This document shows positions 696 to 51,144 of a stretch of 64,000 nucleotides of DNA, one piece after another. The stretch spans positions 17,807,632 to 17,871,631 of the forward strand of contig OX422183.1 of NCBI GenBank assembly GCA_949130485.1, in the 5' to 3' direction. Made by a program: the position numbers and the translations under genes. The notes beneath the pieces were generated by a model that ran no database searches, was not told where the DNA came from, and saw only the letters and a list, made by a program, of their open reading frames with translations. Origin of the DNA: Agelas oroides. Taxonomy: Eukaryota > Porifera > Demospongiae > Agelasida > Agelasidae. Numbering within the stretch: position 1 is the first letter of the stretch; each line of letters opens with the position of its first letter.

Positions 696-968
696 GTCTC
701 CCCTCTCCTCCCCGGCTTCCCTCCTACACTGTTCAGCTGTATGGTTGGGACAGTGTGAACCTCACAGTGCAGTGGCAGCCTCCGCAGTATGATGGTGGGG
801 CTCCAGTCAACTACATCATCACTGTCAGTCCAGGCCTCAGTCCAGTCACCACCAGTGGAACAAGTGTTCCAGTCACTGTACCCTACAATGTGGGACACAC
901 TGTCAGTATTGTGGCTACCAACTGCAATGGAAGCAGCAGTGCTACCATGGTGACCATACCAGCCATAG
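696..968 (+). CDS. Gene A exon: fibronectin type III domain
   Basis: A 273-bp phase 1-1 exon between CTCAG and GTATGT. The 91-residue product has the FN3 signature VQWQPPQYDGGAPVNY (B-strand Trp, proline-rich turn, C-strand Tyr) and ends VTIPAIG. It contains potential N-glycosylation sites. The FN3 exons of genes B, C and D are nearly identical in DNA sequence. FN3 domains usually act as spacers or ligand-binding modules of extracellular proteins. Confidence 0.9.
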
Positions 969-1732
969 GTATGTGTTGCAGTGAAATTACTGTACAGCAA
1001 GAACTTTTCACATGGTACAAAGGCAGTTTGTACCTGAAAAAATGTTTTTGCAAACGTTTAAAACAGGTATATAGCTATATACACACACAGATTTGCCAAT
1101 TAGCTGGGATGGCATGCACAAGTCTGGCAGGCATCTCTAGTATGGTTATCCTCTTGCTTTCATCCTGGTAAGAGATTCTCAATATGCTGAGACCCTCTAC
1201 CTTACTGTCTAACCCAACACAAGCCCCACTACCTGCTCTTAGCAGAGTTCTTCCTCTGCAGTTGGATAAGAGGATAACAGAAGGTGCCATTAAATGTTGG
1301 TGTCACTGATACTTTCAATGTTCACATTCAGTTAGAAATTGAAACTTCAACCCTCAGTGAAGTCGTATGTGTTGTACAATCAACATTATTAATTTTACAA
1401 GTGCATGGTAGCCATATTGTAAGCACAGAGTTTAGTCCCCTCACCTCACCTCCTTGGCGACTGTTCTTGTCTGCTTTCTTCTGCATTAGGAGGCAGGATT
1501 AGAGATATAAAGCACTGATTCATGGTGCAAATAATGGATGTGTCTTTCTTCCTATACCCACCTTCAAAATTAGTGCTTTAACCATAGACATGCCCATATA
1601 CGGGCTTTTCTCCAACACTATAGCTACATAAAAAAAGTAAATAGCTACATGTTTGTACCTAACCACAACACCTGCCCACCAAAGCTTATTACATAGCTGG
1701 TTATTATGAAGTAAAATTCTTTCGCTCTCCAG
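969..1732 (+). other. Gene A intron, nothing recognised
   Basis: 764 bases of A/T-rich intron between the FN3 and CCP1 exons. I see no further exon, RNA gene or clear mobile element in it. Confidence 0.6.
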
Positions 1733-1912
1733 TCAACTGTAGTGATCCCACTCCTCCTATGAATGGTTCCATTGATCCATATCAAAACACAAATGAGGGA
1801 GCTGAGATCTCATTTAGGTGTAACCCAATGTTTGCTCCATCTACAAGAATGACTGCTACTTGTGCATCTAATAGGATGTGGACCCCTGACCCAGGCAGTC
1901 TTCCATGCACAT
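1733..1912 (+). CDS. Gene A exon: CCP/sushi domain 1 (type a)
   Basis: A 180-bp phase 1-1 exon. Four cysteines sit in the CCP order (NCSDP, FRCNP, TATC, SLPC) with the conserved Trp between the third and fourth. The PYQNT...GAEI motif defines what I call type a. The closest relative here is the gene D exon at 50,493-50,672. CCP modules form about 60-residue beads in adhesion and complement-type proteins. Confidence 0.9.
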
Positions 1913-3148
1913 GTGAGTATCTTAGTGTATTCAGATTTGTGTGTAGCATCTCAAGCCACATGGTCTTACATGCACATTGTTAGCCTCATGCATTCCTGGG
2001 CTCATTCCATCTTTGGGAGAGTGGAAACAAGTCTCTGTATTGACACACCTGGAGTGGGAAGTGTTGATGATATTTTGTGAATGTATTTTCATGCAATTTA
2101 GAGATTTGCAATCATCAACTGATTTTTCTTTCTGTTCCCTTATTAACTGCATAATTATATGTGACAATAGTGAATTTGTTATTGTCGAGCGCAGTGAACC
2201 GGAGCAAGGTTTAGTAATCGTGACGTAGGTGTAAAGTACTATAGGAGACTCAAGGCTCGGCAGTTGCGTTGCAGTCTCAGCCCCGCAATGTCAAATTTAT
2301 GTCACACTTTTGGCCCCCAGGGGCCCCCCGCAAGCTACAAGCACACGTGACCTCCATCACTGTTGAGTAAGCAGTCGGACTAGCTCTAGTTGACTATGGC
2401 ACTGCAAAGCAGCGAGCGAATTCAGCGTAAATATCCGCCTCCGTAGCTCATGATCTCAATCGTGGATAGCACTACTGAGCAAACGAGCAAGCTCGGTGTG
2501 AGTTTCCAGCTCGACTTTCATCTAAACAAGTGAACAAATTCGGTGTATGCACCCAACTCGATCTACATCACTCAGCAGTTTCTACACTCTTCTTACGGGC
2601 AGTGTATTGCTGTTTGTCTGCCCTAACTGAACTCCCTTGCTCAGCAGTTCTGGACTGACTGAAGGAAAGCTGAGGACTGGCTTTCCACTTTCAACAGCTA
2701 CTGTTCAAGGACTGTATAGCCTCAGGCCAATGAATAGCATAGGTACGAGGCTCTGGTAGCTATCGTAATCTATCATTTAGTGCATAGATAGTAGAGCAGC
2801 AGAACAGGGATTGGAAACTCCTTCTTTGTATTTGTGCTACTCTATAGAGTGCCTATGGTTAACCATCTGGTTTAGGGTTTTAGCACCCTCATAAGTGTCA
2901 AATTGTGCATTAATGGAAGTTTCCAATCCCTTTCCTGCTACTCTACTCTTACAGTGACCAACTTCATGTTCTTACTATTTATGCTTAGTGTCTCGACAAT
3001 ACGTCAGTAGTGGCCAGGCTCTGCTTTGCGCGTGAGGCTTTCTGCATGTATGTACCCTATATCTATATCTATAATGTGTTAATGAAACTTAAATTAGGAT
3101 GTGAGCTACTGACTTTGAACACATTCAAGGCAAATATTCTCTTCACAG
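1913..3148 (+). mobile_element. Gene A intron with nested inverted-repeat elements
   Basis: An outer element of about 820 bp is suggested by TATTGTCGAG near 2,177 and its inverted copy CTCGACAATA near 2,993. The enclosed DNA is visibly richer in CpG than the flanks. Nested inside, GATTGGAAACTCC (near 2,810) and GGAAGTTTCCAATCCC (near 2,918) face each other, flanked by inverted GTAGAGCAGCAG-like ends. No coding sequence is seen. The element type is not identified. Confidence 0.45.
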
Positions 3149-3328
3149 TTGACTGTGGTCCACCAGTTGCCCCACAGCATGGATTTCTGGAGAGCTACAC
3201 TAACACAACAGTAGGTTCAGAGGTGTTCTACAGGTGTAACCAACATCTGGTTCCAGAGGGGAGGAGGAGAGCTGTGTGCACTAGGAATGGGTGGAGCCCA
3301 AACCCTGCTGACCTGAGCTGCACTATAG
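3149..3328 (+). CDS. Gene A exon: CCP domain 2 (type b)
   Basis: A 180-bp phase 1-1 exon starting V/L-DCGPP and ending SCTIG. Cysteines are in DCGPP, YRCNQ, AVC and LSC, with Trp in NGWSPNPADL. The LESYTNTT motif marks type b. Equivalent exons are 18,252-18,428 (B), 36,348-36,524 (C) and 50,965-51,144 (D). Confidence 0.9.
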
Positions 3329-3769
3329 GTATGTTGCAGTGACAAATGTCAACTTGTGCTTAGGTGTTTCTTTGGTTCTCTGCATATGTGACTTTGATAC
3401 ATTCTTAATTGTAAAAAGTCACAGTGCACTTTACTCAATGGTAGTGTTATGCTTATTGTTGCTGTTCATGAAGAAACCATCCCGCAAGCCATAGGACTCA
3501 TTGAGCAGAGCTGAAGTGTAAGTGCATGGTTGCCTACATATATGTAGCCACATCAATACAGATCAGTAGTGGAGGAACATATTTTAGATTAGGGGGGAGG
3601 GGAGCTGAGTAATATGTGTGTGCATAACCACTCTGAGCACACAGCAGCTGTGGAGGTCTGGTAAACTGCCTATTCCATTTTGGTTCCAATATTTCTGTTA
3701 TGTCATGTAAACTGGATTGTGAATTCAAAACATTCTTGGAAACCGGTGAGCTCCAGGGCACCCTACTGC

Positions 3770-3905
3770 TACGAAGAGTTAGGATCACCCTGGTCCACTC
3801 AAGGAGTTAGGATCACCGGTGTAGGATCACCCTGGTCTACTCAAGGAGGTAGGATCACCCTGGTCTACTCAAGGAGTTAGGATCACCCTGGGATTTAGGA
3901 TCACC
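3770..3905 (+). repeat. Short tandem repeat, unit GGATCACCCTGGTCTACTCA-like
   Basis: About four imperfect units of roughly 30 bp beginning TAGGATCACC lie in the gene A intron between CCP2 and CCP3, just after a fragment (3,655-3,770) of the repeat family also present at 30,330-30,640 and 58,420-58,740. Confidence 0.7.
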
Positions 3906-4257
3906 CGTTCAATGTTCATGTCACCAGCAAATTGTTAATATGCAGTGTGGAATGCAATCTTCAATGACGTCAAGTGTTAAATTAGAAAAGAACAATGCAC
4001 CAGCACTTTAGCACACTTGAACGAAAATAGAATAGGCGGGTGGTTCCCAGAATGTCTAATCCCATAATGTCTAACACTTGTGCAATTAATCCCAAAATGT
4101 CTAATACTTTGATTAATTAGGGCTAGCATAAGATACTGAGGCAATAGGAGACATCATGAGACATTAGGAGACAACATGAGACACTATGAGCCAATAAGAG
4201 ACATCATGAATGAAACGGGACTGTATGAGACAGCATGAGACACTAAGAGACATTAAA

Positions 4258-4451
4258 GGTACGTTTCAACTGTCGCTGACACAATTAGATAGTATACACT
4301 CGATTGAACCAGTAGCGTGTGGCATATAAGCTGACTGTGGCCAACTACGATCGACAGGCAAACTTCGAATGCGACCTACTCCTCTGCCGTTGCTCATCAA
4401 TACACAGCATTACTCACTCTTACAGATCGCAATATGCCTCCTATGGAGGTG
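4258..4451 (+). repeat. About 190-bp duplicated segment, near-identical to 53,690-53,881
   Basis: Both copies read through TCAACTGTCGCTGACACAAT and end at CCTCCTATGGAGGT with only a few differences. The second copy is the middle of the foldback element at 53,227-54,164, so this intron copy is probably a fragment of the same mobile family. The remaining DNA from 3,906 to 4,257 contains short degenerate GAGACAnnATGAGACA repeats. Confidence 0.75.
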
Positions 4452-4639
4452 TATAAATAGCCGCATACTTGTTAGTATGCATCATTCAACTATTTGACTC
4501 CCATGTGGAACAAATCAGGAATAACTCAGGAAGAGAGCCCGAGAAGAGGTTGTACCGATCCCATCAATCTATAATGATGCGTTGATTGAGCTTAGCACGC
4601 AACATGACCATCCAATGGTAGCTCCTAAACTGCCAAGTT

Positions 4640-5100
4640 TTACAAATTTACCAATGGAATTAAATCACTAGATGCTTTTGGGGCACATGGCTTGAGCTGC
4701 CGGTGCTCTACCACTGACTACAACAACCGGACAACAACCAACCCTCACAGTCCTCTATATGTAGAGTGTACTACACAAGTGGAACTGAATACCTCAGTTG
4801 TACCGACTTTTCACTCTCTATTTTTGCCTCATAACATCTAAGTCACTTTTCCATTGTGAGGCAAGAATGTAAGCATTTGGAATGAGAAACCACTCAGCAT
4901 GGGTTCTCTCCTGAGTGAGAAAATTTTATGATTGACACCTCCCTAATGGAGATCTGATGGCATATGCTGAGCAGCTCCCAGGTGTAGTCACCAGGAATCA
5001 AACCTGGCTTGAGCCGCCAGTGCTCTGCCACTGAGCAACAGCAACCGGACAACCAACAGTGCTTACATGTAATGCACAGGTGGTACCTCACAACATCACC
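4640..5100 (-). repeat. tRNA-derived SINE-like copies (two, adjacent)
   Basis: On the minus strand, GTTGCTCAGTGGCAGAGCA resembles a tRNA A box and GGTTTGATTCC (4,994-5,004 on plus as its complement) a B box. A second, more decayed copy lies near 4,690-4,760. Shared flanking words (CAACCGGACAACC, ACTCAGCATGGGTTCTCTCC) recur at 15,975-16,500. These are polymerase III-type retroposon signatures. The exact ends are uncertain. Confidence 0.55.
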
Positions 5101-5180
5101 TTATTTCTTTTATTTACCGGGCAGACAAATTTATGGGCTGTCTTCAACTCAGTTGCATACAATCAACTTTCTCCCTCCAG

Positions 5181-5366
5181 TCAACTGTAGGACGCCCCCT
5201 GCCCCTGAGAATGGTATGATTGAGAACATCAGCACAACAGAGGTAGTCTTCAGGTGCAACCCAGGCTTTGTTCTAGCTGGGAGGATGAGTGCTACTTGTG
5301 TGTCACCAGATGGAATATCAGTAGTTGGTACCTGGACACCTGACCCTGCTGACCTTGTGTGCAATG
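5181..5366 (+). CDS. Gene A exon: CCP domain 3 (type a)
   Basis: A 186-bp phase 1-1 exon, two codons longer than other type a exons. Cysteines are in NCRTP, FRCNP, ATC and LVC, with Trp in GTWTPDPADL. The insertion falls between the third Cys and the Trp (SPDGISVVG). Confidence 0.88.
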
Positions 5367-6083: not shown

Positions 6084-6281
6084 CCAGTGTTGTTGTCTGT
6101 GAAGAGCCCACTCCCACCAGTGGAGTCACCGTGGTCCAGCCACACAGCAATGTAGTGAACTCAGAGATAGTCTATCGATGTGAGGAGTCAGGGTTTACTC
6201 CATCAAGTAACAGCTCACTGTGTGGGGAAGATGGAATGTGGAGTCCAGACCCTTCCCAAGTAGAGTGCAGGATGTTAACAG
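6084..6281 (+). CDS. Gene A exon: CCP domain 4 (type c)
   Basis: A 198-bp phase 1-1 exon. Cysteines are in VVCEEP, YRCEE, SLCGED and VEC, with Trp in GMWSPDPSQV. A short RMLTG linker follows the last cysteine, a feature of type c exons only. Equivalents are 21,258-21,455 (B) and 40,542-40,742 (C). Confidence 0.88.
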
Positions 6282-7145: not shown

Positions 7146-7244
7146 TTTCATTAGGGAAATGCCATTAGTAGTATGTTATAACATACAATCATTTTGTCTC
7201 CTCATTTGAAAGGTGGATTATTGGTAGCGTTCTGTATATTATAG

Positions 7245-7418
7245 GTTGTGGGCAGCCACTTACCCCTGGTAATGGTTCCATCCAGGCATATCAAAACACA
7301 ACTGAGGGATCTGAGATATTCTTCAGATGTGACCCAGGGTTTGTCCCAGCTGGGATGATGAGGGCAATGTGTAGAACAGATGGGTGGACCCCTGACCCTG
7401 CTACTCTTGTGTGTACAG
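7245..7418 (+). CDS. Gene A exon: CCP domain 5 (type a)
   Basis: A 174-bp phase 1-1 exon preceded by TATAG. Cysteines are in GCGQP, FRCDP, AMC and LVC, with Trp in DGWTPDPATL. It carries the PGNGS and YQNTTEGSEI type a motifs. Gene C has a matching exon at 41,113-41,292. Gene B has none in this position. Confidence 0.87.
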
Positions 7419-7809: not shown

Positions 7810-7874
7810 ACTTATGGTAATATGTTAAATTGGAAATGAAAATAAATTTATGTCTGGATACTATTGTTCTCCAG

Positions 7875-8069
7875 TCAGTGCCACTGTCTGTGGGGCTCCA
7901 ATCTTTTCCAGTGGAGTCAGTGGAGTGGCTGTGGAGCCATTCAGTAGTACAATAGTCAACTCAGAGATAGTCTACCAGTGTCAGCCAGGACTTCTACCAG
8001 AGGGAAGGAGGACATTGCTGTGTGGGGAGGATGGGAGGTGGAGTCCTGACCCTCAGGGCCTGTGCACAG
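7875..8069 (+). CDS. Gene A exon: CCP domain 6 (type d, membrane-proximal)
   Basis: A 195-bp phase 1-1 exon. Cysteines are in TVCGAP, YQCQP, LLCGED and GLC, with Trp in GRWSPDPQGL. The EPFSSTIVNSEIVYQC stretch marks type d, which always precedes the transmembrane exon, here by only a 65-bp intron. Confidence 0.9.
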
Positions 8070-8134: not shown

Positions 8135-8445
8135 ACAAAAGCCTCTCTACAGCTGCTACTGCAGCCATTACAGCTGTTGTCTGCCTACTGGTGGCATTCG
8201 TTACTGGGGCTCTGTGTTGTGGTTTGGTTACTGTCTGCATCAGCAGGTGGAACACAAAGGGACGTAGCTCTAAGCCAGCACCAAACACACAAGAACAGCA
8301 GCAAGCAGCTGTAGTGTATGAGGAGGTGGCTACACAGAGTAACAAGATTGAACTGAAAGAAAATGTGTCATATGGACCAGTGAAACAGGACCAGACGTTT
8401 GAACTGAAAGAGAATGTTGCATATGCACCAGTGAAACAGAATTAA
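8135..8445 (+). CDS. Gene A last coding exon: transmembrane helix and ITIM-like tail
   Basis: The exon opens with DKSLSTAAT, then a hydrophobic helix (about AITAVVCLLVAFVTGALCC onward, some 25 residues) closed by the basic stop-transfer ISRWNTKGR. The tail has a Gln-rich NTQEQQQAA, then tyrosines in VVYEEV, VSYGPV and VAYAPV, the last two inside a duplicated ELKENV unit. All three fit [ILVS]xYxx[ILV]. It ends KQN-stop at 8,443-8,445. The final motif (APV) differs from GPV in genes B and C. Confidence 0.9.
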
Positions 8446-14283: not shown

Positions 14284-14691
14284 CTACTGTTGTCTTAGAC
14301 TCCAGTGTGGGTATGAGACGGGCCTGCCCTACGGAGATTGTAACTTACACCTGCACTGTCAACCAGGGAGCTCTTCTGAACTGGATTGTTGAGCCATACG
14401 TCTCTGGCGCCACTCGTATACGATTTCTGCTGAGTAGTACACCCACTGGGAGTAGTGTGAACTGCAACAGTGTTGCATCTGTACAGTGTGAAGACTTTGA
14501 CTTTGTGGCCACCCTCACAAACGCTGCCAACCCCATGACTATAATGAGTGGTACTGGTACAGTAACTGTGGCTGATATGACCTCCACCCTGACATTCACT
14601 GCTACAGTCAGACTGAATGGGACAGTGGTGCAGTGCAGAGGAGTAACTGCAGAGGGGTTCCCGATGAACAACAGTACTATCAGTGTTGCAG
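14284..14691 (+). CDS. Gene B exon: Ig-like domain (type 1)
   Basis: A 408-bp phase 1-1 exon between TGCAG and GTGTGT, 136 residues. The Ig pattern is VTYTCTV (B-strand Cys), LLNWIV (core Trp), MTSTLTFTAT (E strand) and NGTVVQCRG (F-strand Cys without the usual Tyr two residues earlier). Two further cysteines (VNCNSV, VQCEDF) could form an extra disulphide; the gene D copy keeps them. Several NxS/T sites are present. The ligand is unknown. Confidence 0.8.
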
Positions 14692-17062: not shown

Positions 17063-17332
17063 GTCTCCCCTCTCCTCCCCGGACTCCCTCCTACACTGTT
17101 CAGCAGTATGGTCGGGACAGTGTGACCCTCACAGTGCAGTGGCAGCCCCCACAGTATGATGGTGTGGCTCCAGTCAACTACACCATCACTGTCAGTCCAG
17201 GCCTCAGTCCAGTCACCACCAGTGGAACAAGTGTCACTGTCACTGTGCCCTACAATGTAATACACACTGTCAGTATTGTGGCCTCCAACTGCAATGGGAG
17301 TAGCACTGCTGTCATGGTCACCATCAGAATTG
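17063..17332 (+). CDS. Gene B exon: fibronectin type III domain
   Basis: A 270-bp phase 1-1 exon, one codon shorter than in A, C and D. It has VQWQPPQYDGVAPVNY and NVIHTVSIVASN, and ends TIRIG instead of TIPAIG. Its DNA is otherwise nearly identical to the other three FN3 exons. Confidence 0.9.
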
Positions 17333-17622: not shown

Positions 17623-17802
17623 TAAACTGTAGTGGTCCCACTGCCCCTGGTAATGGCTCCTTTGAACCATATCAAAACACAACTGAGGGAGCTGAGATAT
17701 TCTTCAGATGTAACCCAGGGTATGTCCCAGCTGGGAGGATGAGAGCAGTGTGTGGAGCAGATGGGAGGTGGAACCCTAATCCTGCCACTCTTGTGTGCAC
17801 AT
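17623..17802 (+). CDS. Gene B exon: CCP domain 1 (type a)
   Basis: A 180-bp phase 1-1 exon beginning VNCSGPTAPGNGS with the EPYQNTTEGAEIFFRC motif. Four CCP cysteines and Trp (GRWNPNPATL) are present. The donor is GTGAGT. Confidence 0.9.
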
Positions 17803-18251: not shown

Positions 18252-18428
18252 TTGACTGTGGTCCACCTGGTGACCCACAACGTGGATCTCTGGAGAGCTA
18301 CACTGGCACAACAGAAGGTTCAGAGGTGTTCTACAGCTGTAACCCAGGTCTGGTTCCAGCGGGGAGAATGAGAACTGTGTGTACTAGGAATGGGTGGAGT
18401 CCTAACCCTGCTGACCTGAGATGTGCAG
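18252..18428 (+). CDS. Gene B exon: CCP domain 2 (type b)
   Basis: A 177-bp phase 1-1 exon: DCGPPGDPQRGSLESY, YSCNPGLVPAG, TVC and NGWSPNPADLRC. This is a standard CCP cysteine pattern. Confidence 0.9.
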
Positions 18429-18776: not shown

Positions 18777-18868
18777 AACTAACCGCCCCATCCATTTGAG
18801 CCATAAATGCCCCACCCATTTAAGTCATAAATGCCACACCCAATTAAGCCATAAAATGCCCCACCCAT
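18777..18868 (+). repeat. 92-bp direct repeat, left copy
   Basis: Built of short GCCCCACCCATTTAAGCCAT-like units. It is identical over 92 bp to 20,202-20,293. The copies flank about 1.33 kb of unrelated DNA inside the gene B intron between CCP2 and CCP3. Confidence 0.85.
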
Positions 18869-20201: not shown

Positions 20202-20370
20202 AACTAACCGCCCCATCCATTTGAGCCATAAATGCCCCACCCATTTAAGTCATAAATGCCACACCCAATTAAGCCATAAAATGCCCCACCCATTTAAGCC
20301 ATAAATGCCCCACCCATTTAAGCCATAAAATGCCCCATCCATCTAAGCCATAAATGCCCCATCCCCATCT
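20202..20370 (+). repeat. 92-bp direct repeat, right copy, with extra tandem units
   Basis: The first 92 bases match 18,777-18,868 exactly. Four or so more CCATTTAAGCCATAAATGCC units follow, so the right side has a longer minisatellite. Confidence 0.8.
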
Positions 20371-20506: not shown

Positions 20507-20686
20507 CCAACTGTAGTGATCCAACTGTCCCTGGAAATGGTGTTATTGATCCATATCAAAACATGCTGGAGGGAGCTCAGATATTCTTCAGATGTAATCC
20601 AGGGTTTGTCCCAGCTGGGAATATGACAGCAGTGTGTGAAACAGATGGCAGGTGGAACCCTGACCCTGCTACTCTTGTGTGTACAT
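20507..20686 (+). CDS. Gene B exon: CCP domain 3 (type a)
   Basis: A 180-bp phase 1-1 exon (acceptor CTATAG): NCSDPTVPGNG, FFRCNPGFVPAG, AVC and GRWNPDPATLVC. The PYQN motif reads PYQNMLEGAQI. The following 571-base intron shows nothing. Confidence 0.9.
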
Positions 20687-21257: not shown

Positions 21258-21455
21258 GCAGCCCCACTGACTGTAATGCTCCCCCCACCCTTGCCAGTGG
21301 GGTGACTGGTGAATACAATGCTACCACAGTGAGCTCAATGATAGTCTACCGATGTCAGCAGCCAGGGTTTGCTCCATCATCACCAAGCTCAGTGTGTGTA
21401 GAAGATGGGAGGTGGAGTCCAAACCCCTCTCAAGTGGTGTGTGTGATGTTACCAG
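21258..21455 (+). CDS. Gene B exon: CCP domain 4 (type c)
   Basis: A 198-bp phase 1-1 exon: TDCNAPPTLASGV, YRCQQPGFAPSS, SVCVED, GRWSPNPSQVVC, then the VMLPG linker typical of type c. Confidence 0.9.
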
Positions 21456-21614: not shown

Positions 21615-21800
21615 CCAGTGCCATTGACTGTGAAGCTCCTTACTTTTCCTGTGGAGTGACTGTAGAGCCATTTAGCAGTACCACAGTGGGCTCAGAGATA
21701 TTCTACCAGTGTCAGCCTGAATTTCTTCCAGAGGGTAGGAGGACATTGCTGTGTGGGGGAGATGGGAGGTGGAACCCTGACCCTCAGAGTCTGTGTACAG
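21615..21800 (+). CDS. Gene B exon: CCP domain 5 (type d) with an extra cysteine
   Basis: A 186-bp phase 1-1 exon too open-ended to start with ATG. It reads IDCEAPYFSCGVTVEPF, YQCQPEFLPEG, LLCGGD and GRWNPDPQSLC. The fifth cysteine (FSC) is absent from the A and C copies, which have FSSG. An unpaired cysteine next to the membrane could allow disulphide-linked dimers. This is inference. Confidence 0.88.
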
Positions 21801-21873: not shown

Positions 21874-22184
21874 ACAAAAGTCTGTCTACAGCAGCTACTA
21901 CAGCCATTGCAGCTATTGTCTGCTCACTGGTGACATTCATCACTGGGGCTCTGTGTGGTGCTTTGCTCACTGTCTGCATCAGCAGGTGGAACAAGAAGGG
22001 ACGTAGCTCTAAGCCAGCACCAAACACACAAGAACAGCAGCAAGCGGCTGTAGTGTATGAGGAGGTGGATACACAGAGTAAGAAGATTGAACTGAAGGAG
22101 AACGTGGCATATGGACCAGTGAAACAGGACCAGACGTTTGAACTGAAAGAGAATGTTGCATATGGACCAGTGAAACCAAATTAA
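21874..22184 (+). CDS. Gene B last coding exon: transmembrane helix and ITIM-like tail
   Basis: The layout matches gene A: DKSLSTAAT, a helix around AIAAIVCSLVTFITGALCG, basic ISRWNKKGR, then VVYEEV and two VAYGPV units within ELKENV repeats, ending KPN-stop (22,182-22,184). All three tyrosine motifs fit the ITIM consensus, and YEEV also resembles Src-family SH2 ligands. Confidence 0.9.
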
Positions 22185-27847: not shown

Positions 27848-28192
27848 TGTAATTCTTTCCCATAAAAATTTTCCATGAATTATGTCCTTTTCCATTTGAC
27901 CAAAATCGGTCACTCATTGCTTTTGCAATAGAACATCACATATCCAGTTGCAGGTTACATGTGTGAATTCCAGAATGCTTACATATTTTCATGTTGTACA
28001 TTTTCAGAATGCTTTTGTGATTTTCTGTGATTTCATCAGACGTATTTACATGTGTGAAGTGCAGAATGCTTTCATGGTTTTCTGATTGTGGAATACCACA
28101 TATTGACATAACCATTATGTATGGTCTCTGCAGATCATGTATGTACTGTCAAAAGGAGAATTATAGTCTGCTTTCTCCTTCACAGCAACAAC
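27848..28192 (+). promoter_or_regulatory. Gene C 5' flank and leader with a short upstream ORF
   Basis: The part near 27,910-28,190 is duplicated at the left edge of the window. It contains internal repeats of CAGAATGCTTTCATG type. A small upstream ORF starts at an ATG near 28,138 (MYVLSKGEL, stop) and lies before the real start at 28,193. TCTCTGCAG just before it could be a 5'-UTR acceptor. No TATA box is assigned. Confidence 0.45.
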
Positions 28193-28247
28193 ATGCTGAC
28201 GTTGGTAGTCTGTTTGGTTGTGATTTTTGTGACACCCATTTGTGCAG
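28193..28247 (+). CDS. Gene C exon 1: signal peptide
   Basis: ATG followed by MLTLVVCLVVIFVTPICA, then G|GTAAGAC. It is a classic short leader: a hydrophobic core and small residues (ICA) at the cleavage point. It ends in phase 1, matching the acceptor phase of every downstream exon. No equivalent was found for genes A, B or D. Confidence 0.85.
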
Positions 28248-31029: not shown

Positions 31030-31362
31030 ACAATGTGGAACTGACTTCAAACAAAGAAAGGCAGTTCACATCTCCTGGAGACCAGGTGATATTCACTTGT
31101 CGAGTGTTTGGGTCAGTATATCTGGAATGGCACAGTCCACTCGTTACTCAGTCAACTGCATACTTAGCAAGTTCTACACCTCCAGCAATCTTGATTCGAG
31201 GTCCATTTACTGTTTCTCTCATCAGTGTTAGTGGCACCCCTCTAAATGCTAACTTCACTTCCACTCTGCAAGTGACTGCATCTAGGATGTTTATGAGGAA
31301 TGCAGCAACTGTAATGTGCCTTAGCAGTACTGCTAACAAAACAGACAACTTCACAGTTGCAG
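31030..31362 (+). CDS. Gene C exon 2: Ig-like domain 1 (type 2)
   Basis: A 333-bp phase 1-1 exon (acceptor TTGTAG, donor GTAAGT): VELTSNKERQFTSPGDQVIF, TCRVF (B Cys), YLEWHS (core Trp), NFTSTLQVT (E strand), ATVMCLSS (F Cys). It is a tandem duplicate of the next exon. A cysteine present there (FTCPGD) is Ser here (FTSPGD). Confidence 0.82.
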
Positions 31363-32323: not shown

Positions 32324-32659
32324 AGAATGTGGAGCTGACCTCAAACAAGGAAAGCCAGTTCACATGTCCTGGAGACCAAGTGACATTTACCTGTCGAGTG
32401 TTTGAATCAAGTTCTCTGGAATGGCGCAGCCCACTCATTACTCAAACATTTGCATACATATCAACAGATACACCACTGCAAACCTTCATTCGAGGTTCAT
32501 TTACTGCTACTCTCATCAGTGTTAGTGGCTCTGCTCTGAATTCCAACTTCACTTCCACTCTACAAGTGACTGCATCCAGGATGTTCATGAGGAATGAAAC
32601 AACTGTGACGTGCCTTAATAGTGCTTCAGATAACAAAACAGACAACTTCACAATGGCAG
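32324..32659 (+). CDS. Gene C exon 3: Ig-like domain 2 (type 2)
   Basis: A 336-bp phase 1-1 exon: VELTSNKESQFTCPGDQVTF, TCRVF, SLEWRSPL, NFTSTLQVTASRMFMRN, TVTCLNS. It has the same frame, length class and motifs as exon 2, so one arose from the other by tandem duplication including about 50 bp of preceding intron (GTTACCTCCACTCT and CACCTTTCTCATTG are shared). Confidence 0.85.
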
Positions 32660-33386: not shown

Positions 33387-33659
33387 GTCTCCCCTCTCCT
33401 CCCCGAACTCCCTCCTTCACTGTTCAGCAGTATGGTCGGGACAGTGTGACCCTCACAGTACAGTTGCAGCCTCCACAGTATGATGGTGGGGCTCCAGTCA
33501 ACTACACCATCACTGTCAGTCCAGGCCTCAGTCCAGTCACCACCAGTGGAACAAGTGTTCCAGTCACTGTGCCCTATAATGTGACACATACTGTCAGTAT
33601 TGTGGCCACCAACTGCATTGGGAGTAGCAGTGCTGCTGTGGTGACCATACCAGCCATAG
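33387..33659 (+). CDS. Gene C exon 4: fibronectin type III domain lacking the core Trp
   Basis: A 273-bp phase 1-1 exon. It is the same sequence as the other FN3 exons except that QWQPP is QLQPP, a one-base change replacing the near-invariant B-strand tryptophan with leucine. YDGGAPVNYTITV and NVTHTVSIVATN are intact. Confidence 0.9.
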
Positions 33660-33937: not shown

Positions 33938-34117
33938 TCAACTGTAGTAATCCAACTGTCCCAGCAGATGGTTCTATTGAGCCATATCAAAACACAACTG
34001 AGGGAGCTGAGATATTCTTTAGATGTAACACAGGGTTTGTTCCATCTGGGACGATGAGGGCAGTGTGTGGGGCAGATGGAAGATGGACCCCTGACCCTGC
34101 TGCTCTTGTGTGCACAC
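33938..34117 (+). CDS. Gene C exon 5: CCP domain 1 (type a)
   Basis: A 180-bp phase 1-1 exon: NCSNPTVPADGS, EPYQNTTEGAEIFFRC, AVC and GRWTPDPAALVC. A decayed partial copy of its first 40 bp (GTAGTGATCGTACTGTCCCT, near 33,820) lies in the preceding intron. Confidence 0.9.
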
Positions 34118-36347: not shown

Positions 36348-36524
36348 TTGACTGTGGTCTACCTGGTACCCCTCGGAATGGATCTCTGGAGAGCTACACT
36401 GACACAACGGAGGGTTCAGTGGTGTTCTACAGCTGTGGCCCAGGTCTGGTTCCAGAGGGGATGATGAGAGCTGTGTGCACTAGGAATGGGTGGAGTCCAA
36501 ACCCTGCTGACCTGAGCTGTGTAG
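36348..36524 (+). CDS. Gene C exon 6: CCP domain 2 (type b)
   Basis: A 177-bp phase 1-1 exon without an internal ATG-start frame: DCGLPGTPRNGSLESYTDTT, YSCGPGLVPEG, AVC and NGWSPNPADLSC. It aligns residue for residue with the type b exons of A, B and D. Confidence 0.88.
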
Positions 36525-39957: not shown

Positions 39958-40137
39958 TCAACTGTAGTGATCCCACTGTCCCAAGAAATGGTTCCATTGA
40001 TCCATATCAAAACACAACTAAGGGAACTGTGATTGTGTTTGGATGTAACCCAGGGTTTGTCCCAGCTGGGAGGATGACAGCCGTGTGTGCATCAGATGGG
40101 AGGTGGAGCCCTGACCCTGCCACTACTGTGTGCACAT
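39958..40137 (+). CDS. Gene C exon 7: CCP domain 3 (type a)
   Basis: A 180-bp phase 1-1 exon: NCSDPTVPRNGS, DPYQNTTKGTVIVFGC, AVCASD and GRWSPDPATTVC. In this copy the usual EGAEIFFRC is TKGTVIVFGC. Confidence 0.9.
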
Positions 40138-40541: not shown

Positions 40542-40742
40542 TCAGTTCCATTGACTGTAGAGCTCCTTCCACCCTTGCCAATGGAGTCACTGTGCTTGAG
40601 CTCCACACTACTACAGTGAACTCAGTAATACTCTACCAGTGTCAACAGTCAGGGTTTGCTCCATCAAGTAATAGCTCAGTGTGTGAAGAAGATGGAAGGT
40701 GGAGCCCAGATCCCTCACAAGTGATGTGTGTGATGGTACCAG
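40542..40742 (+). CDS. Gene C exon 8: CCP domain 4 (type c)
   Basis: A 201-bp phase 1-1 exon after a poly-T tract: IDCRAPSTLANGVTV, YQCQQSGFAPSSNSS, VCEED and GRWSPDPSQVMC, then the VMVPG linker. Confidence 0.9.
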
Positions 40743-41112: not shown

Positions 41113-41292
41113 TCAGTTGTGGGAGACCCATTACCCCTGACAATGGTTCCATTGAGCCATATCAAAACATACTGGAGGCAGCTGAGATATTCTTCAAGTG
41201 TAACCCAGGATTTGTCCCAGCTGGGAGGATAACAGCAGTGTGTGGAGCAGATGGGAGGTGGAACCCTGACCCTGCCTCTCTTGGGTGCACAG
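41113..41292 (+). CDS. Gene C exon 9: CCP domain 5 (type a)
   Basis: A 180-bp phase 1-1 exon: SCGRPITPDNGS, EPYQNILEAAEIFFKC, AVCGAD and GRWNPDPASLGC. It is the counterpart of gene A 7,245-7,418 and is missing from gene B. Confidence 0.9.
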
Positions 41293-42404: not shown

Positions 42405-42599
42405 TCAGTGCCACTGTCTGTGGGGCTCCAATCTTTTCCAGTGGAGCCAGTGGAGTGACTGTGGAGCCATTTGGTAGTACCATAGTCAACTCAGAGATAC
42501 TCTACCAGTGTCATCCAGGCCTTCTACCGGAGGAAAGGAGGACATTGCTGTGTGGGGAAGATGGGAGGTGGAGTCCTGACCCTCAAGACCTGTGCACAG
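42405..42599 (+). CDS. Gene C exon 10: CCP domain 6 (type d)
   Basis: A 195-bp phase 1-1 exon, nearly identical to gene A 7,875-8,069: TVCGAPIFSSGASGVTVEPF, YQCHPGLLPEE, LLCGED and GRWSPDPQDLC. A 61-bp intron separates it from the transmembrane exon. Confidence 0.9.
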
Positions 42600-42660: not shown

Positions 42661-42965
42661 ACAAAAGTCTCTCTACTGCTGCTACTACAGCCATTACAGC
42701 TGTTGTCTGCCTATTGGTGGCATTCATTGCTGGGACTGTGTGTGGTGCATTGCTCAATGTCTGCATCAGCAGGTGGAACAAGAAGGGACATAGCTCTAAG
42801 CCAGCACCAAACACACAAGAACAGCAGCAAGCAGCTGTAGTGTATGAGGAGGTGGATACACAGACTAAAAAGATTGAACTGAAAGAGAATGTGGCATATG
42901 GACCTGTGAAACAGGACCAGGAGTTTGAACTGAAAGAGAATGTGGCATATGGACCAGTGAAATAA
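42661..42965 (+). CDS. Gene C exon 11: transmembrane helix and ITIM-like tail
   Basis: 101 residues. The helix is at about exon residues 10-36 (AITAVVCLLVAFIAGTVCGA region), then basic SRWNKKGH. Tyrosines are at exon residues 62 (VVYEEV), 80 (VAYGPV) and 97 (VAYGPV). The last two sit in a 17-residue duplicated unit beginning ELKENV. It ends GPVK-stop, two residues shorter than in A and B. The tyrosine spacing (18 and 17) is longer than in a classical ITAM, so independent ITIM-like sites fit better. Confidence 0.9.
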
Positions 42966-44832: not shown

Positions 44833-46298
44833 AAGATGTGGTCCACACTGACAGCAGTTATTCAATTTTTGCATTGAACCACTTGCGGGGAACCACTTGG
44901 CAAACTCTACCATCATCCATTTGCTGTATGGCTATAGAATAGTTGAAGAACAGCTACACATTAGCCACTGGGTGGTGGTAGTTCAAGGACTCTGCTTCAC
45001 AGTAGCTATAGGATGGTGGTGATTCAAGGTCTCTTTGCTAGTGCTGCACGCAAGAAACACAAAAACAACTTTGGCCAACAGCCACTAATGAAATTCATCT
45101 TCTGTTAGAACGGATGCGATGACATCATATATTTACCTCTCAGGATTCACTACCGCTTGTACATCGGGGCAGTGTGTATGCTCAGGTATGTGGTTGCATA
45201 TGCCGCAAGTGTCATGTAGCTAGCTCAACTAGTGCTATTTTGAAGGTTGTTCTAAATTTAAACAGTTCTCGATGCCTCATCAGATCACACCGGTGTACGG
45301 TGTGGGGTTCATTGTACCTAGCTAAGCCTAAGGCTATATTTGTGTATAAAAGCCGACCATGCCATTCTACTATGCCATTCTGCCTAGCTATTCTTTTCCA
45401 GGCCTGGCTTTCAGTACAGTATGCTAGTGACAAGACTGCATGCCTTGGTTTTCTCATCCTCTGCTGACATGCATATGAATCTGGCTATAGAGCCTGGACT
45501 AGTCTCATTTACTTACCAATCTGGCAACAGCTAGCCTACTGTCTAGTATTAACCAGAATGACTAATGATTAATTAGTCGTAGCCAGATGGTCTGGAACTA
45601 ACAGACAAGATGCAGGGTAGGTAGAGTCTCTAGTGCTAAGGCATTTCAATCATTGACACTACAGAGCACATGCACTTGATCTTCTGCCTCACTGATCTCA
45701 AATCACTGACACACAGAGTTCTGAAGGATGCTGTTGTGTTGGACACTTCCAGTGGTGTCACTGGTCATCTCAACACTTAACAGTGTTACAGGTTGGTGTT
45801 GTGTGGATGTTGTAACTGCTGCACTGACTCAGAAGAGCAATGAGTTATTGTATCCTATGTAAGATTTGTGCAGTACCCCCTCCTTGCACTCCAAGTTACA
45901 GTCATTTAGGGTGGTGCCCAGTGGATGTCTAGCCCAGTGGACAATCAATGCCTACAGGTGATGGTGATCAGCAGGGCTTGCTTCATGAAGTATACATGGC
46001 ACAGACTGATGACTGCATCATAGGGATAATGTAAAATACATCTCAATATTTGAGCCTAAGGCTGGCATAAGCACTTTGTATGGCTTTTCTTCGGAAGGAG
46101 AAATGCTTCCGGTCGGCTCCTATAAATGGGGGTTCTGACGGCACATACAAAGTGGCTGCTGCTTTTACCCAGCTCGCTGGTGGCAGCAAAAGTACCTCGG
46201 TACTAACCATGCAGAGTTAGAGTTAGCCTAAAGATCCAGCCTGAGAATCGAACAGTGTCTATGGATAAATGCCATCTATCCTCTGCTCCAATGCCAGA

Positions 46299-46370
46299 GC
46301 TCCAGTGGCTCAGTTGGTAAGAGCATCTGACCGGAATTCAGAGGACTCAGGTTCGAATCCTGGCTGGATC
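46299..46370 (+). ncRNA. tRNA-like sequence, probably SINE head or tRNA pseudogene
   Basis: The 72 bases fold as a tRNA: acceptor GCTCCAG/CTGGATC (one mismatch), D stem GCTC/GAGC, anticodon stem TCTGA/TCAGA with loop CCGGAAT, T stem TCAGG/CCTGG with loop TTCGAAT. The B box GGTTCGAATCC is perfect. Position 33 is C rather than the near-universal U, and the tail GGATCTCAAT-like sequence recurs near 10,000, so a retroposon origin is likelier than a working tRNA. The anticodon would read GGA. Confidence 0.6.
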
Positions 46371-47392
46371 TCAATGTCATTTTTCGCCAACTGATTTTAT
46401 GGTCACCTAATGAGTCACACTTCATCTTTCCTATCACTTTTGACAAACCTGCTCCCCCCAAGCATCTCTGTCGTATTCTCTAAACTGTTTCTTTCCACAC
46501 TTTCCTGGATGGCCTATTAAGGTAGGACAACCTTGAATTGTGGATTGGCCTGATTCCAACTCATGAATAGTACATTTGATCATGATGGTGCTATTAAGAT
46601 TTATTGGTTTAGTGACATTTTTTCATGGTGGCAACTGGAATCAACAAGGGGGCATGTCCTTTTGCTGTGGTGTGTGGCCCTTTGTAGTGGGCTGGCGACA
46701 CTTTCATGTGACCGGGTGGAACTTTGAAGATGTCCTCCAACACTTAAAAAAAGACACTAAGCAGATTTTCTAGCTTTTTGAATGTGATGCTTGGTCATTT
46801 GTGTGTGAAAAGCTGGGATTGAATGTTTAACATGCAGGAAAGGCCAAGAGCCATTCTGGAAGATGGGTATGATTACACAGTTCTCTGGCAAAGGTACTGT
46901 AGAATGGTGACTCTTCGACCTTGTAGATCCTGTCTGTTTTTGGGCTAGCCAGAATGTGTGTAAGTTGGCTCCAGTCTAGGGGCAATGACAGTTGTAACTA
47001 ATAATTATAATGTATGATGTCATAGTTGGTATGATGATCTAGTGCGCATGTGCAGTTCTGGGTCCTGCACCTCATGCTATGCCAGAAATAAAATGATGTC
47101 CTCTACTTGTCTAAATCCTCCTGCATCCAAGTGGTCACGACAACAGGGAGTACATAATTTTCTAGCCATAACTCCCTAGCCTAGAGGTGAAGCATGTCTA
47201 GTTTTGCATGGGGTGAGTTGAGCTTTCTGAAACTGGGTTCAGTTTTAGTTGGTTTCAGTGGAGGTGTGTCACGTTTTTCTTGAAAGGCAACATAGCCAAA
47301 TACCTGTTTTTGAGGTCAGCTGTGAACTTTTCCAGTAGACTGGATTTGAAGTGGTCCCATGACAAACCCATAGGTGAAGTTTTTACTTGTTT

Positions 47393-47428
47393 TGTGTGTG
47401 TGTGTGTGTGTGTGTGTGCATGTGTGTG

Positions 47429-47526
<98 letters not shown>
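47393..47526. repeat. Long TG microsatellite
   Basis: About 134 bp of TG with rare CA/CG interruptions. A CA run of 37 bp follows at 47,799-47,835. Confidence 0.97.
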
Positions 47527-47527
<1 letters not shown>

Positions 47528-47739
47528 AGGAAGACTAAAATGCTGTTATAGATAAGTTGGGTTAATAGTTGGTGAGAGATAGCTACTCAGCATATTGATG
47601 AATATTGGTAAATTAAGGTATGACAACCTTGGATCATGCCAAATCACATGGATGGCTAAATGTGCAAGGTCTACACACAAGACTGACAAACTGCTCCCTC
47701 TACCTGATAATGCCAATCTTTAGCCTCCCAGCTAAAATA

Positions 47740-47780
47740 GAAATTTGCACCCTCTCCAACTTGGAGAGGGTGCAAATTTC
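47740..47780. repeat. Perfect hairpin, 20-bp arms, 1-base loop
   Basis: GAAATTTGCACCCTCTCCAA, one C, then its exact reverse complement. It lies about 195 bp upstream of the gene D Ig exon. It is not part of any repeat family seen elsewhere in the window. Confidence 0.9.
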
Positions 47781-47795
47781 TCTGACCACATCATC

Positions 47796-47837
<42 letters not shown>

Positions 47838-47973
47838 CTCATAGCCTTTGTTCAGTAACCAGGGTGCTACATTTGCAACCATGTTGTAATTTGATTTACT
47901 TTTCCTCAGACCTAAATCTTGACCTTGGTGAAGTAGTTGTTTCACTTCATTGTGTAACCTTCCTCATCTCTAG

Positions 47974-48357
47974 CCACCATTACCCTGACCTCTACTCTGG
48001 ACGGGAGACAGGCTGCCTGCCCTGGGGAGTTGGTGACCTACACCTGCACCGTGACCCAGGGATTTCTTATCGGCTGGACTGCTGCTCCAGTTCTTGTGAA
48101 TCCTTCTCTGGTGCGCTTTGCACCCTCTGATCCAGCTAGGAGGATGGTGGGATGCAGTGATATTGCAACCATACAGTGTGCTAACTTGGACTTTCTGGCC
48201 ACCTTCACAAGTGTTGGCACTGTTGTAAATGGAGCAGCAGACATGACCTCCACCTTCAGGTTCACTGGAAGACCTGGGCTCAATGGAACAGTGGTAGAAT
48301 GCAGTGGTATGACCTCACCTCCTACACCATCAGAAAGCCACACTCTCACTGTTGCAG
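47974..48357 (+). CDS. Gene D exon: Ig-like domain (type 1) with GC donor
   Basis: 384 bp, phase 1-1: ACPGELVTYTCTVTQG, IGWTAAP, ATIQCANLDFLATF, MTSTFRFTGRPGLNGTVVEC and TLTVAG. It aligns with gene B's Ig, including the extra cysteine pair. The exon ends G|GCAAGTG: the donor is GC, not GT, in an otherwise ideal splice context. Confidence 0.8.
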
Positions 48358-49011
48358 GCAAGTGATAATGTTGCAGTAGATGAGCCCACATATAGAGAGA
48401 CATGGTATATAATCTCACACTGACTACCCAATATGTGATAGAAACTACCAGCCTACAAGTAGTAATTTGGGAGGTTTTAGTGGGAGAGGCTGCACACAGC
48501 TAAGGAACAAGCTACTTTTTGCACATTTTTCAATCTATCACAAATCCAGCATCTGGTACATGTGTTTGTAACTAACTATATTGCATCGCTACTTGGCTAG
48601 TGCTAGAAACTAGGTGGCAGTGGACTATTTAACTGTACCTTCAAAGCCCTTGGATGCTTACCCTGCACCAACCTGACTAAAACAGCTGTTTGCACTCAGG
48701 CAGGTATCTGTTGATGGCTTTTAAGTATGTACACTGCAGCTATGGCTGCAGCAAGGTACATGCTTCAGCTGTATAATTGTACATGTCTGAACAGTGAACA
48801 CGTACTTCACACCACACATGTCCACCGTTGACTGTTCTAATGTGTCTGATTCCATTAAGCATATGTTGCATGGAGTACAAGTGTAGGAATGGTTCTGCAT
48901 GTGAGGAGAAAAAGAATTGGTGGGGGGGATGAAAGACAGTGTTAACGTGGGCTTTCAGGTGTACAAAGTTTACATCTAAAGTATGTATCATGGTTCTTTC
49001 TCCCCTGACAG
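48358..49011 (+). other. Gene D intron before FN3
   Basis: 654 bases. The portion near 48,835-48,900 matches 475-560 at the gene A left end (ATGTTGCATGGAGT). No additional exon is seen. Confidence 0.5.
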
Positions 49012-49284
49012 ATCTCCCCTCTCCTCCCCGGACTCCCTCCTCCACTGTTCAGCAGTATGGTCGGGACAGTGTGACCCTTACAGTGCAGTGGCAGTCCCCA
49101 CAGTATGATGGTGGAGTTCCAGTCAACTACACCATCACTGTCAGTCCAGGCCTCAGTCCAGTCACCACCAGTGGAACAAGTGTTCCAGTCACTGTGCCTT
49201 ACAATGTGATACACACTGTCAGTATTGTGGCCACCAACTGCAATGGGAGCAGCAGTGCTGCCATGGTGACCATACCAGCCATAG
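49012..49284 (+). CDS. Gene D exon: fibronectin type III domain
   Basis: A 273-bp phase 1-1 exon with VQWQSPQYDGGVPVNYTITV and NVIHTVSIVATNCNG, ending TIPAIG. It is nearly identical in DNA to the other three FN3 exons. Confidence 0.9.
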
Positions 49285-50492
49285 GTACAGAAGCTGAGAA
49301 GGGCATTCTGCAGTTTTGCAAGTATTATGCATGTTAGATAAGACTTTTATTGGAAATGTATCTATAGACTGGATAGACAGTGAATGAACTACAGGTGGGC
49401 ATAATTATCATTCTATCCAGAGTACAACTTGCAACAGGATATAGCATTAGCATGGGTAAGATTGTTACCAGTGTATGCTGTATGAGGTAGTGTAAAAATT
49501 AATGATGTTGGAATGGGGCTTTGCCTGTATGTTGACTTTTGCTCTTATGCTATCATCCCTACCATAATTGCATACTTTTTGGAATGCTATCTCTAAATTT
49601 CTAACATTAAGCAATACTATAACCCAATTGAAAGTAATCAACTGCAATTTAATCAATGTACAAGTTAAGCAAACAAGCCACTGCAACTCCGTTCTGTGGT
49701 CGAGGAAATGCAACTGAACTGGAGGCCTGCATGGCATGCATATATAAACTTGGAGATCTTGACTACATGTCATAAGTGTGAATAGTAGCTACCTAAACAA
49801 TGCAAGAAATGTAAATATGCATTTCTGCTCCACTATACACTAAGCCTTAACATTTAACTAATCCCAGAAAGCTAGTCTATGGATATTCCATCTATAAATA
49901 ACTGTATCTACTACAGTATGCGTACACTGAAGGAATGGCAGAATGGCAGTATGGCAGAATGACAAAATGGGATGGCTCTTCTCGGCTTCCGTACATAGGT
50001 ATCTCTCAGTCTTTGGATGCTGAAAGTTCAAAGACAGCTAGCTAACATTTGTCTGGTTGATGTACATTATTCAACATCACTAATTGTACCATGTACATTT
50101 ATTTATTTTTAGCTATTTGTTACGCAGTAAGCACTCACGAAGTCTACCAAAGAAATTACAGTAACATTTAGCAACTTTGTTCCTCAGTACAGATCACAGC
50201 ACCATTTGTGAGTGGTAGCCTCAGCATTGAAGCTTTACTGTTTTATGGATTGTGTTCTTCTTGGTTAGGAATGTAGGTGGCACAGATGGTAAAGACTACC
50301 AGGTTTAACAACTGCCTTCAACATAGCACTTTAATCACAAATGTATAGCTGTTTTACTCATATGGAGGTGTACGCATCCACCTGCTTATGTAACATATTA
50401 AATACACATTGCATAGCTGCTTGTGTCTATTCTGATTACACTAGAACCCCTACATTTTCCTGCTTGTGTCTAATGCTTCTTTCTCTCTCCAG
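49285..50492 (+). other. Gene D intron, nothing recognised
   Basis: 1,208 bases between FN3 and CCP1. Apart from a short GGAATGGCAGAATGGCAGTA repeat near 49,935, nothing is recognised. Confidence 0.5.
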
Positions 50493-50672
50493 TCAACTGT
50501 AGTGATCCCACTCCTCCTAGTGATGGTTCCATTGATCCATATCAAAACACAACTGAAGGAGCTGAGATCTCATTTGGTTGTAACTCAATGTTTGTTCCAT
50601 CTACAAGGATGACTGCTACTTGTGCATCTAATGGGATGTGGACCCCTGACCCCAGCAGTCTTACATGCACAT
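50493..50672 (+). CDS. Gene D exon: CCP domain 1 (type a)
   Basis: A 180-bp phase 1-1 exon: NCSDPTPPSDGS, DPYQNTTEGAEISFGC, ATCASN and GMWTPDPSSLTC. It is the closest match to gene A CCP1. Confidence 0.9.
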
Positions 50673-50964
50673 GTGAGTATCTACTATAGTGTATGTACAC
50701 ATAATTATTACTAGGCTCACCTTTTGCCATTGGGGAGAGCCTGGGAACAAGGCCATATGCATTCACACACCTGGAGTGGGAAGTGTGAAAGTCGATGTAC
50801 ATGTCCTTTGAACTTAGAGAAGGCCTTGGAGATTAACTAAACTGATTTTTGTTGTTGTTATCCTATATATAGGATAACAGTGCAAATGACATATCTATGG
50901 GTTGAGAAAAAGGTAGAATAGTAAATTTGGGGTTACTTTAAACATTCAAACATCCTTTGTGCAG

Positions 50965-51144
50965 TTGACTGTGGTCGACCAGTTGCCCCACAGCGTGGAT
51001 ATCTGGAGAGCTACACTGACACAACAGAGGGTTCGGAGGTGTTCTACAGCTGTGACCCAGGTTTGGTTCCAGAGGGGAGGATGAGAGCTGTGTGCACTGG
51101 GAATGGGTGGAGTCCAAACCCTGCTGGTGTGAGCTGCACTGTAG
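50965..51144 (+). CDS. Gene D exon: CCP domain 2 (type b)
   Basis: A 180-bp phase 1-1 exon lacking an ATG-initiated frame: DCGRPVAPQRGYLESYTDTT, YSCDPGLVPEG, AVCTGNGW and SPNPAGVSC, then the GTATGT donor. In this copy ADL before the last Cys is AGV. Confidence 0.88.

Follow-up and report, generated by a model that had tools for sequence, protein, structure and literature searches.

The window, a stretch of 64,000 nucleotides of the demosponge Agelas oroides (G000:C1:17807632-17871631; GC content 41-45%), holds four gene units, A to D, built from immunoglobulin-like (Ig), fibronectin type III (FN3) and complement control protein (CCP, or Sushi) exons and, in three of them, an exon for a transmembrane segment and tail (TM/tail). 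It belongs to a 259 Mb genome in 141 contigs, in which chromosome C1 measures 32.7 Mb and C2 26.2 Mb. An earlier note on this DNA had described four paralogues on one strand, and all four do lie on the forward strand at the coordinates it gave. The FN3 exon that it had them share is present in each (87-90% identity to that of unit B), and the ordered stalk comprises 19 CCP exons (six in A, five in B, six in C and two in D) in matching order, with invariant Cys, Pro and Trp. The TM/tail exon ascribed to three units is found in A, B and C, the other two being 85 and 89% identical to that of B. The exons are, in window coordinates:

142..216, + strand: unit A leader-region relic, an 88% DNA match to window 28112-28186 (5' flank of C, not the signal peptide core)
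696..968, + strand: unit A FN3 exon
1733..1912, + strand: unit A CCP 1
3149..3328, + strand: unit A CCP 2
5181..5366, + strand: unit A CCP 3
6084..6281, + strand: unit A CCP 4
7245..7418, + strand: unit A CCP 5
7875..8069, + strand: unit A CCP 6 (Pfam-scanned)
8135..8445, + strand: unit A TM/tail exon with VVYEEV, NVSYGPV, NVAYAPV and stop
14284..14691, + strand: unit B Ig-like exon, class igB
17063..17332, + strand: unit B FN3 exon
17623..17802, + strand: unit B CCP 1 (Pfam-scanned)
18252..18428, + strand: unit B CCP 2
20507..20686, + strand: unit B CCP 3
21258..21455, + strand: unit B CCP 4 (Pfam-scanned)
21615..21800, + strand: unit B CCP 5
21874..22184, + strand: unit B TM/tail exon with VVYEEV, two NVAYGPV and stop
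28193..28247, + strand: unit C leader exon, MLTLVVCLVVIFVTPICA, with phase-1 donor CAG/GTAAGA
31030..31362, + strand: unit C first Ig-like exon, class ig2, in which Ser replaces the second exon's Cys before PGD
32324..32659, + strand: unit C second Ig-like exon, class ig2, whose model has a V-type Ig fold
33387..33659, + strand: unit C FN3 exon
33938..34117, + strand: unit C CCP 1
36348..36524, + strand: unit C CCP 2
39958..40137, + strand: unit C CCP 3
40542..40742, + strand: unit C CCP 4
41113..41292, + strand: unit C CCP 5
42405..42599, + strand: unit C CCP 6
42661..42965, + strand: unit C TM/tail exon with VVYEEV, two NVAYGPV and stop
45728..45791, + strand: unit D probable leader exon, MLLCWTLPVVSLVISTLNSVT, whose donor is shared by a similar exon 5' of the igA gene at C1:18181494 (L066)
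47974..48357, + strand: unit D Ig-like exon, class igA, with a GC splice donor
49012..49284, + strand: unit D FN3 exon
50493..50672, + strand: unit D CCP 1
50965..51144, + strand: unit D CCP 2, the last recognised exon (no tail)

Every internal exon is phase 1-1 and bounded by AG and GT, the GC donor after the Ig exon of unit D being the lone exception. The FN3, CCP, tail and Ig exons of the four units match each other at E-values far below chance; the best non-self paralogue matches reach 1e-45 to 1e-61, which excludes chance. No further place in the window matches these exons at E<=0.01 beyond other frames or overlaps at the same exons (stop-to-stop frames of at least 25 amino acids, both strands). 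Unit C reads as a full 11-exon gene of 804 amino acids with a leader, two Ig, FN3, six CCPs, a hydrophobic segment and the tail; an in-frame ATG at 28121 offers an alternative start. Its leader region has ten non-self DNA matches, nine of which sit 0.6-5 kb 5' of an ig2 exon, the tenth being the relic in A. The reading frame of unit B is open from the Ig exon to the stop (635 amino acids), that of A from FN3 to the stop (564 amino acids) and that of D from the probable leader to the second CCP (360 amino acids, without a tail). A leader exon was found for C and probably for D, and none for B.

Two units are incomplete. No Ig exon lies between the tail of the preceding gene and the FN3 exon of A, and since the upstream stretch as far as that tail is without one, we rejected an artefact of the window edge as the cause. 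Because of this absence, together with the 75-bp relic of a C-type leader flank at 142-216, unit A looks like a 5'-truncated gene. For unit D, no tail match (E<=0.001) occurs before the Ig (17895481), FN3 (17899587) and tail (17906157) of the next gene. That A has no visible Ig, as the earlier note remarked, is thus correct as an observation, but like the missing tail of D it is probably a matter of decay. The Ig counts given for the other units (one in B, two in C and one in D) stand, but the single "type 1" proposed for B and D does not: the two exons are 45% identical and belong to two classes, igB and igA. "Type 1" and "type 2" Ig exons are mutually homologous (phmmer E about 1.5e-4 to 2e-3).

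In a Pfam search, a check that the earlier note had proposed, the domain names fare unevenly. The Sushi cut-off (PF00084, 20.7 bits) is passed by all three of the CCP exons tested (of the 19 in the window). Of four FN3 exons scanned, three reach the fn3 family below its threshold (15.3-17.9 bits against 25) and that of unit C gives no fn3 row; PKD rows occur on all four, above the cut-off for that of unit C (26.6 against 23.5). A PDB profile search with the FN3 exon supports FN3, with Titin at E = 1.2e-8 and the prolactin receptor at 0.011. The Pfam Ig families match none of ten Ig exons (four scanned at E<=0.5 and six at E<=1), and hhalign gives 15% probability between 25 Ig exons and 20 I-set domains of the same genome (20 of 24 fetched loci, four repeats being excluded). 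In the PDB profile search with Ig, the 60 matches listed, out of 237, are antibody chains, with a best E of 0.028. The second Ig exon of unit C is predicted to fold as a V-type Ig domain, the modelled beta-sandwich carrying the B-strand Cys, the C-strand Trp and the F-strand Cys, and a fold search backs the Ig assignment for this unit. Sponge aggregation factors are defined by Calx-beta, VWA or Wreath domains, and Pfam scans of a selection of exons gave no row for any of the three.

Extent of the cluster and histories of its modules

A window tail searched against its own genome gives 121 matches at E<=0.001, 116 of them on C1 (150 of 152 candidates were scored; cluster counts are lower bounds). 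Merged within 1.5 kb, they amount to at least 111 places on C1, 99 of which fall at 13-22 Mb; 32 are packed into 0.7 Mb (17.65-18.36 Mb), all on the forward strand. Ig queries have at least 51 and at least 42 genome matches and the FN3 query at least 51, all but one of each on C1. There, we count at least 77 distinct Ig and at least 49 distinct FN3 exons, with an Ig exon at most 5 kb upstream of 42 of the 49. The order Ig, FN3, tail recurs along the 0.7 Mb. Some cluster genes run from Ig to tail with no FN3 detected between, and one Ig exon is on the reverse strand. In five compact genes at 18.21-18.35 Mb, the tail is of a second type and the CCPs number two to four. Farther off, similar tails follow other exons: Sushi and another sandwich-like domain near 20 Mb, and an unrecognised exon near 13 Mb. 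Places L001-L008, from an initial look, are unrelated Sushi.

A single relative lies off the cluster, on another chromosome (L071, G000:C16:1099500-1104000); it has Ig, CCPs and tail, and an FN3 that is matched in two frames. L026 and L027 (G000:C1:13110578 and 13135086) are two oppositely oriented tail exons, about 24 kb from each other, that encode the same protein sequence; their neighbouring frames are nearly identical, and the pair is probably a recent inverted duplication.

The tails have tyrosine motifs in common. Among the best 30 of the 121 tails by score, which include the three of the window (L009, L012, L013) and the duplicate pair L026/L027, all 30 carry at least one NxxYxP[VMA] motif, and 26 have a preceding YxxV/I. 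A tally of repeats in 34 tails selected by motif (which missed L032 and L033) finds one copy in 15, two in 17, four in one (L017) and twelve in one (L070). In all three window tails, VVYEEV and NV[AS]Y[GA]PV fit the consensus of the immunoreceptor tyrosine-based inhibitory motif (ITIM), [IVLS]xYxx[ILV], a fit that does not imply inhibition; in many relatives, a P at position -2 puts the first tyrosine motif outside this consensus. We rejected the activating counterpart, ITAM (YxxL/I x6-8 YxxL/I): by eye, the tyrosines of the window tails are wider apart and position +3 is V. YEEV is near the Src-SH2 optimum, and NPSY in the relative L028 resembles NPxY ligands of PTB domains. L070 (G000:C1:20570301-20572400, - strand) is an open frame of 433 amino acids in which a hydrophobic segment is joined by 12 or more NxxYGP[VM] motifs mixed with YEEV, a tail cassette amplified inside one exon; a matching 433-amino-acid frame lies 218 kb away at C1:20789694.

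What is new here is that the Ig, FN3 and tail modules have separate histories. We defined igA, igB and ig2 from the sequences before making any tree, and in 23 genes we set the FN3 exon against the last Ig exon. The FN3 of L039, which copies that of unit A, was left out of all counts, and the first Ig of L055, nearly a copy of L054's, was left out of one. For pairs of the same class, mean synonymous divergence (dS) is 0.56 in Ig and 0.22 in FN3, and Ig is the higher in 78 of 83 pairs. FN3 exons are no more divergent between Ig classes (0.212, 170 pairs) than within them (0.224; permutation p 0.80). In the Ig phylogeny, igB and ig2 form clades at 100/100 and igA requires two changes. On the FN3 tree, a one-clade constraint is rejected for igA, igB and ig2 alike (approximately unbiased test, p 5.6e-6, 1.5e-7 and 0.015), and two FN3 pairs that mix igA and igB are supported at 99/99 and 100/98. 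FN3 divergence does not track tail type (0.182 against 0.182, p 0.42, 19 genes), and igA and igB each occur with both tail types. Mantel tests, on 8 to 11 genes each, are not significant for Ig dS with FN3 dS (igA, r 0.20, p 0.20; igB, r 0.15, p 0.29) or for FN3 with tail (r -0.28, p 0.88).

Divergence also changes along the gene. In such pairs as were available, dS is 0.79 for Ig (12 pairs), 0.17 for FN3 and 0.41 for the first CCP in a 10-gene set, and 0.47 for the last CCP and 0.27 for the tail in a 13-gene set. In one pair of genes, a stretch of at least 1,001 bp is 95% alike and contains no exon but the first Ig of each; their other alignable pieces are 79-87% alike, apart from one short piece at 92%. 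Judged from these sequences, exon exchange, by conversion or by shuffling, would best account for the separate histories. Such decoupling of Ig, FN3 and tail suggests that a germline repertoire may be diversified by exon exchange without loss of signalling.

Resemblance to known systems and competing readings

In the way they work, the nearest systems appear to be the fester co-receptors (FcoR) of Botryllus schlosseri and the Alr proteins of Hydractinia; we claim a resemblance on paper, not membership. The FcoR/fester proteins have, in the part of the account used here, a signal sequence, a V-type Ig, Sushi, a TM segment and a long tail with ITIM, hemITAM or YxxI/L/V, and they form a clustered multi-gene family, theirs within an allorecognition locus (PMC12065747). 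That part list (V-type Ig, Sushi, TM, and a tail with YxxI/L/V or ITIM) is present in the sponge units, with FN3 placed between the Ig and several Sushi. FcoR differ in that two C2-type Ig domains follow the Sushi, no FN3 being mentioned in the portion cited, and in that they are chordate genes at 53 loci, paired with fester genes beside HECT ligases (PMC12065747). The sponge units, by contrast, have FN3 and two to six CCPs after the Ig, and their tail repeats NVAYGPV; between the CCPs and the tail we recognised no Ig exon in the four units, C2 Ig profiles not having been searched as such. The Hydractinia Alr, described with the help of AlphaFold predictions, are likewise single-pass, clustered Ig-superfamily receptors of low mutual identity in one interval (PMC11067881, in excerpt), with V-set and I-set domains (PMC11999971, in excerpt). 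They are unlike the sponge units in being cnidarian, at 41 or more loci, with no CCP mentioned in the excerpt (PMC11067881); our comparison with them is by description.

Sponges themselves have large expanded sets of SRCR and TIR-Ig receptors, and SRCRs can combine with Sushi and FN3 (PMC8242945, in excerpt). Those families differ in being defined by SRCR or TIR domains. Pfam scans of part of the exons contain no TIR row, and their lone SRCR row is Hepsin-SRCR on the Ig exon of unit B (E 0.083, 14.1 bits against a cut-off of 26.6). Chicken BG and mammalian KIR and LILR are Ig-type receptors in clusters; many of them bear tyrosine motifs, and they evolve by exchanging parts. They are vertebrate families not known to have a CCP stalk, and we claim no homology. 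We found no published account of this sponge family in the open-access literature, judged from titles and abstract openings.

Going by sequence, the window is one section of a demosponge cluster of type I membrane receptors that reaches chromosome scale, and we think it rather probable that these are germline-diversified recognition receptors for non-self, self or both. We divide the weight of recognition about equally, in rough terms, between allorecognition and microbe recognition. The distal Ig would bind a ligand, held away from the membrane by the rod of FN3 and CCPs. Clustering by the ligand may lead a Src-type kinase to phosphorylate VxYEEV and NxxYGPV, and the phosphorylated motifs could then dock SH2 or PTB proteins. 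The repertoire would diversify by duplication and by exchange at the level of exons (gene conversion, or shuffling via the symmetric phase-1 introns), which might let genes go on sharing interchangeable stalks and tails even as old Ig classes survive. A bolder form, which we consider doubtful, is a sponge histocompatibility or immune complex of more than 100 genes, in which a shared, amplifiable cassette of tyrosine motifs (from 1 to at least 12 docking repeats) lies beneath several ectodomain types, with outer V-type Ig modules exchanged over homogenised FN3 and tail. If true, it would place a germline-encoded system of combinatorial receptors at the base of the animals.

Several results weigh against these receptors being a diversified recognition family. 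Half of the four units look defective, A lacking leader and Ig and D lacking a tail, and some of the variation claimed is therefore probably decay. The layout of a recognition family, as the earlier note put it, retains its conserved stalk and tail, divergent outer Ig and tandem array, and loses that part of the variation. As for the Ig fold, Foldseek places its best row for the ig2 model at E 1.6e-3 (TM about 0.5) and none at E<=0.001, and the model of the other type ("type 1") has pLDDT 43 and was unusable. The membrane segment was assigned by eye. The ig2 rows do group in part on the FN3 tree: 23 of 500 shuffles need as few changes, compared with 365 for igA and 179 for igB. By NG86, dN/dS calculated from the means is 0.48 for igA, 0.55 for igB and 0.66 for ig2, none above 1, next to 0.45 for FN3 and 0.40 for the tail. 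A site model with a class of omega >1 (M2a) is preferred to M1a in the three Ig classes (likelihood-ratio statistics 15.4, 21.9 and 14.1; our own implementation, with branch lengths fixed from IQ-TREE), and it is also preferred in the FN3 control (31.7), not in the tails (4.6, p 0.099). We set aside positive selection specific to Ig, and we do not use the site-model test, because the FN3 control is positive too and recombination breaks its assumptions. Lastly, we dropped similarity limited to the FN3 exon as proof of conversion, since introns that vary between paralogues are reported to be general in the gene clusters of Ephydatia muelleri, a freshwater sponge (PMC7385117, in excerpt); our argument therefore rests on the conflict between trees and not on exon-limited homology.

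What the receptors recognise, if they do, can be read in different ways. They may form an allorecognition complex in which polymorphic Ig domains set fusion or rejection, like with like or against a linked ligand. The building plan resembling Botryllus co-receptors and Alr, the linkage on a single chromosome and the ITIM-like motifs in all three window tails speak for this possible but tentative reading, and the copy number speaks against it, at least 111 tail places exceeding the 41 Alr or 53 FcoR loci reported in the excerpts cited above. We give tentative credence as well to innate receptors diversified against food bacteria, symbionts and pathogens, as with the expanded SRCR and NLR families of sponges: individuals of one marine sponge differ in the parts of their receptor repertoire that they express, and its lipopolysaccharide-responsive genes include some with Sushi or immunoglobulin domains (PMC8242945, in excerpt). 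The closest characterised look-alikes that we found act in allorecognition, however, and we identified no microbial-binding feature in the units. Cell-adhesion or developmental receptors, whose Ig classes would mark cell types and whose tandem number would reflect the generally high duplication rate of freshwater sponges, are in our view unlikely. Tandem duplication is widespread in Ephydatia muelleri, with large integrin and E3-ligase clusters (PMC7385117, in excerpt), and the mean dN/dS below 1 agrees with such a role, but deep Ig classes on intermixed FN3 exons with two tail types would not be expected of ordinary adhesion paralogues.

A different challenge is to the exchange itself: the similarity of the FN3 exons might reflect constraint on synonymous sites at the level of codons (RNA or splicing). 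FN3 homology ends near the exon edge, at a median of 5 bases upstream of the first codon (170 different-class pairs). The introns upstream are mostly unalignable, with 35 of 276 pairs above the shuffled 99% level compared with 276 of 276 for the FN3 exon, which fits such constraint; conservation downstream of FN3, available for seven sequences, was not used. GC content at third codon positions is highest in FN3 (0.54, others 0.39-0.46), which could come from biased codon use or from biased conversion. Constraint alone, however, should give an FN3 tree congruent with the Ig tree, and so the tree conflict counts against it: an igA or igB clade among FN3 exons is rejected at p <1e-5 (ig2 at 0.015), and the mixed igA/igB pairs are strongly supported. 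We regard constraint in place of exchange as improbable.

Sponges reject foreign tissue, and we know of no gene that decides it. The mapped cluster of V-type Ig and tyrosine tails would be a concrete candidate region for the genetics of sponge allorecognition.

Other features of the window and the genome

On the reverse strand 3' of unit D, open frames at window 59987-61000 and 61759-62058 each correspond to one half of Pfam DUF7869 (E 5e-34 and 6e-34); they are probably one mobile element or its remnants. A satellite at window 54804-55312 has a 25-bp unit in 20.4 copies with 91% matches, and a 24-bp unit, GCCCCACCCATTTAAGCCATAAAT, is repeated at window 18785-18868 and 20210-20361, within one intron of unit B. 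Elsewhere in the genome, G000:C4:7171661-7199313 holds a tandem I-set array whose best-scoring exons, equal in score, recur every 4.4 to 8.8 kb. The contig G000:C141 (22,436 bp; L072 and L073) is mitochondrial and carries cox1 and atp9, the presence of atp9 being characteristic of demosponges, with TGA inside frames; its cox1 match is interrupted by an intron-like stretch of about 1.2 kb, and a further cox1 match, on contig C107, is free of stops.

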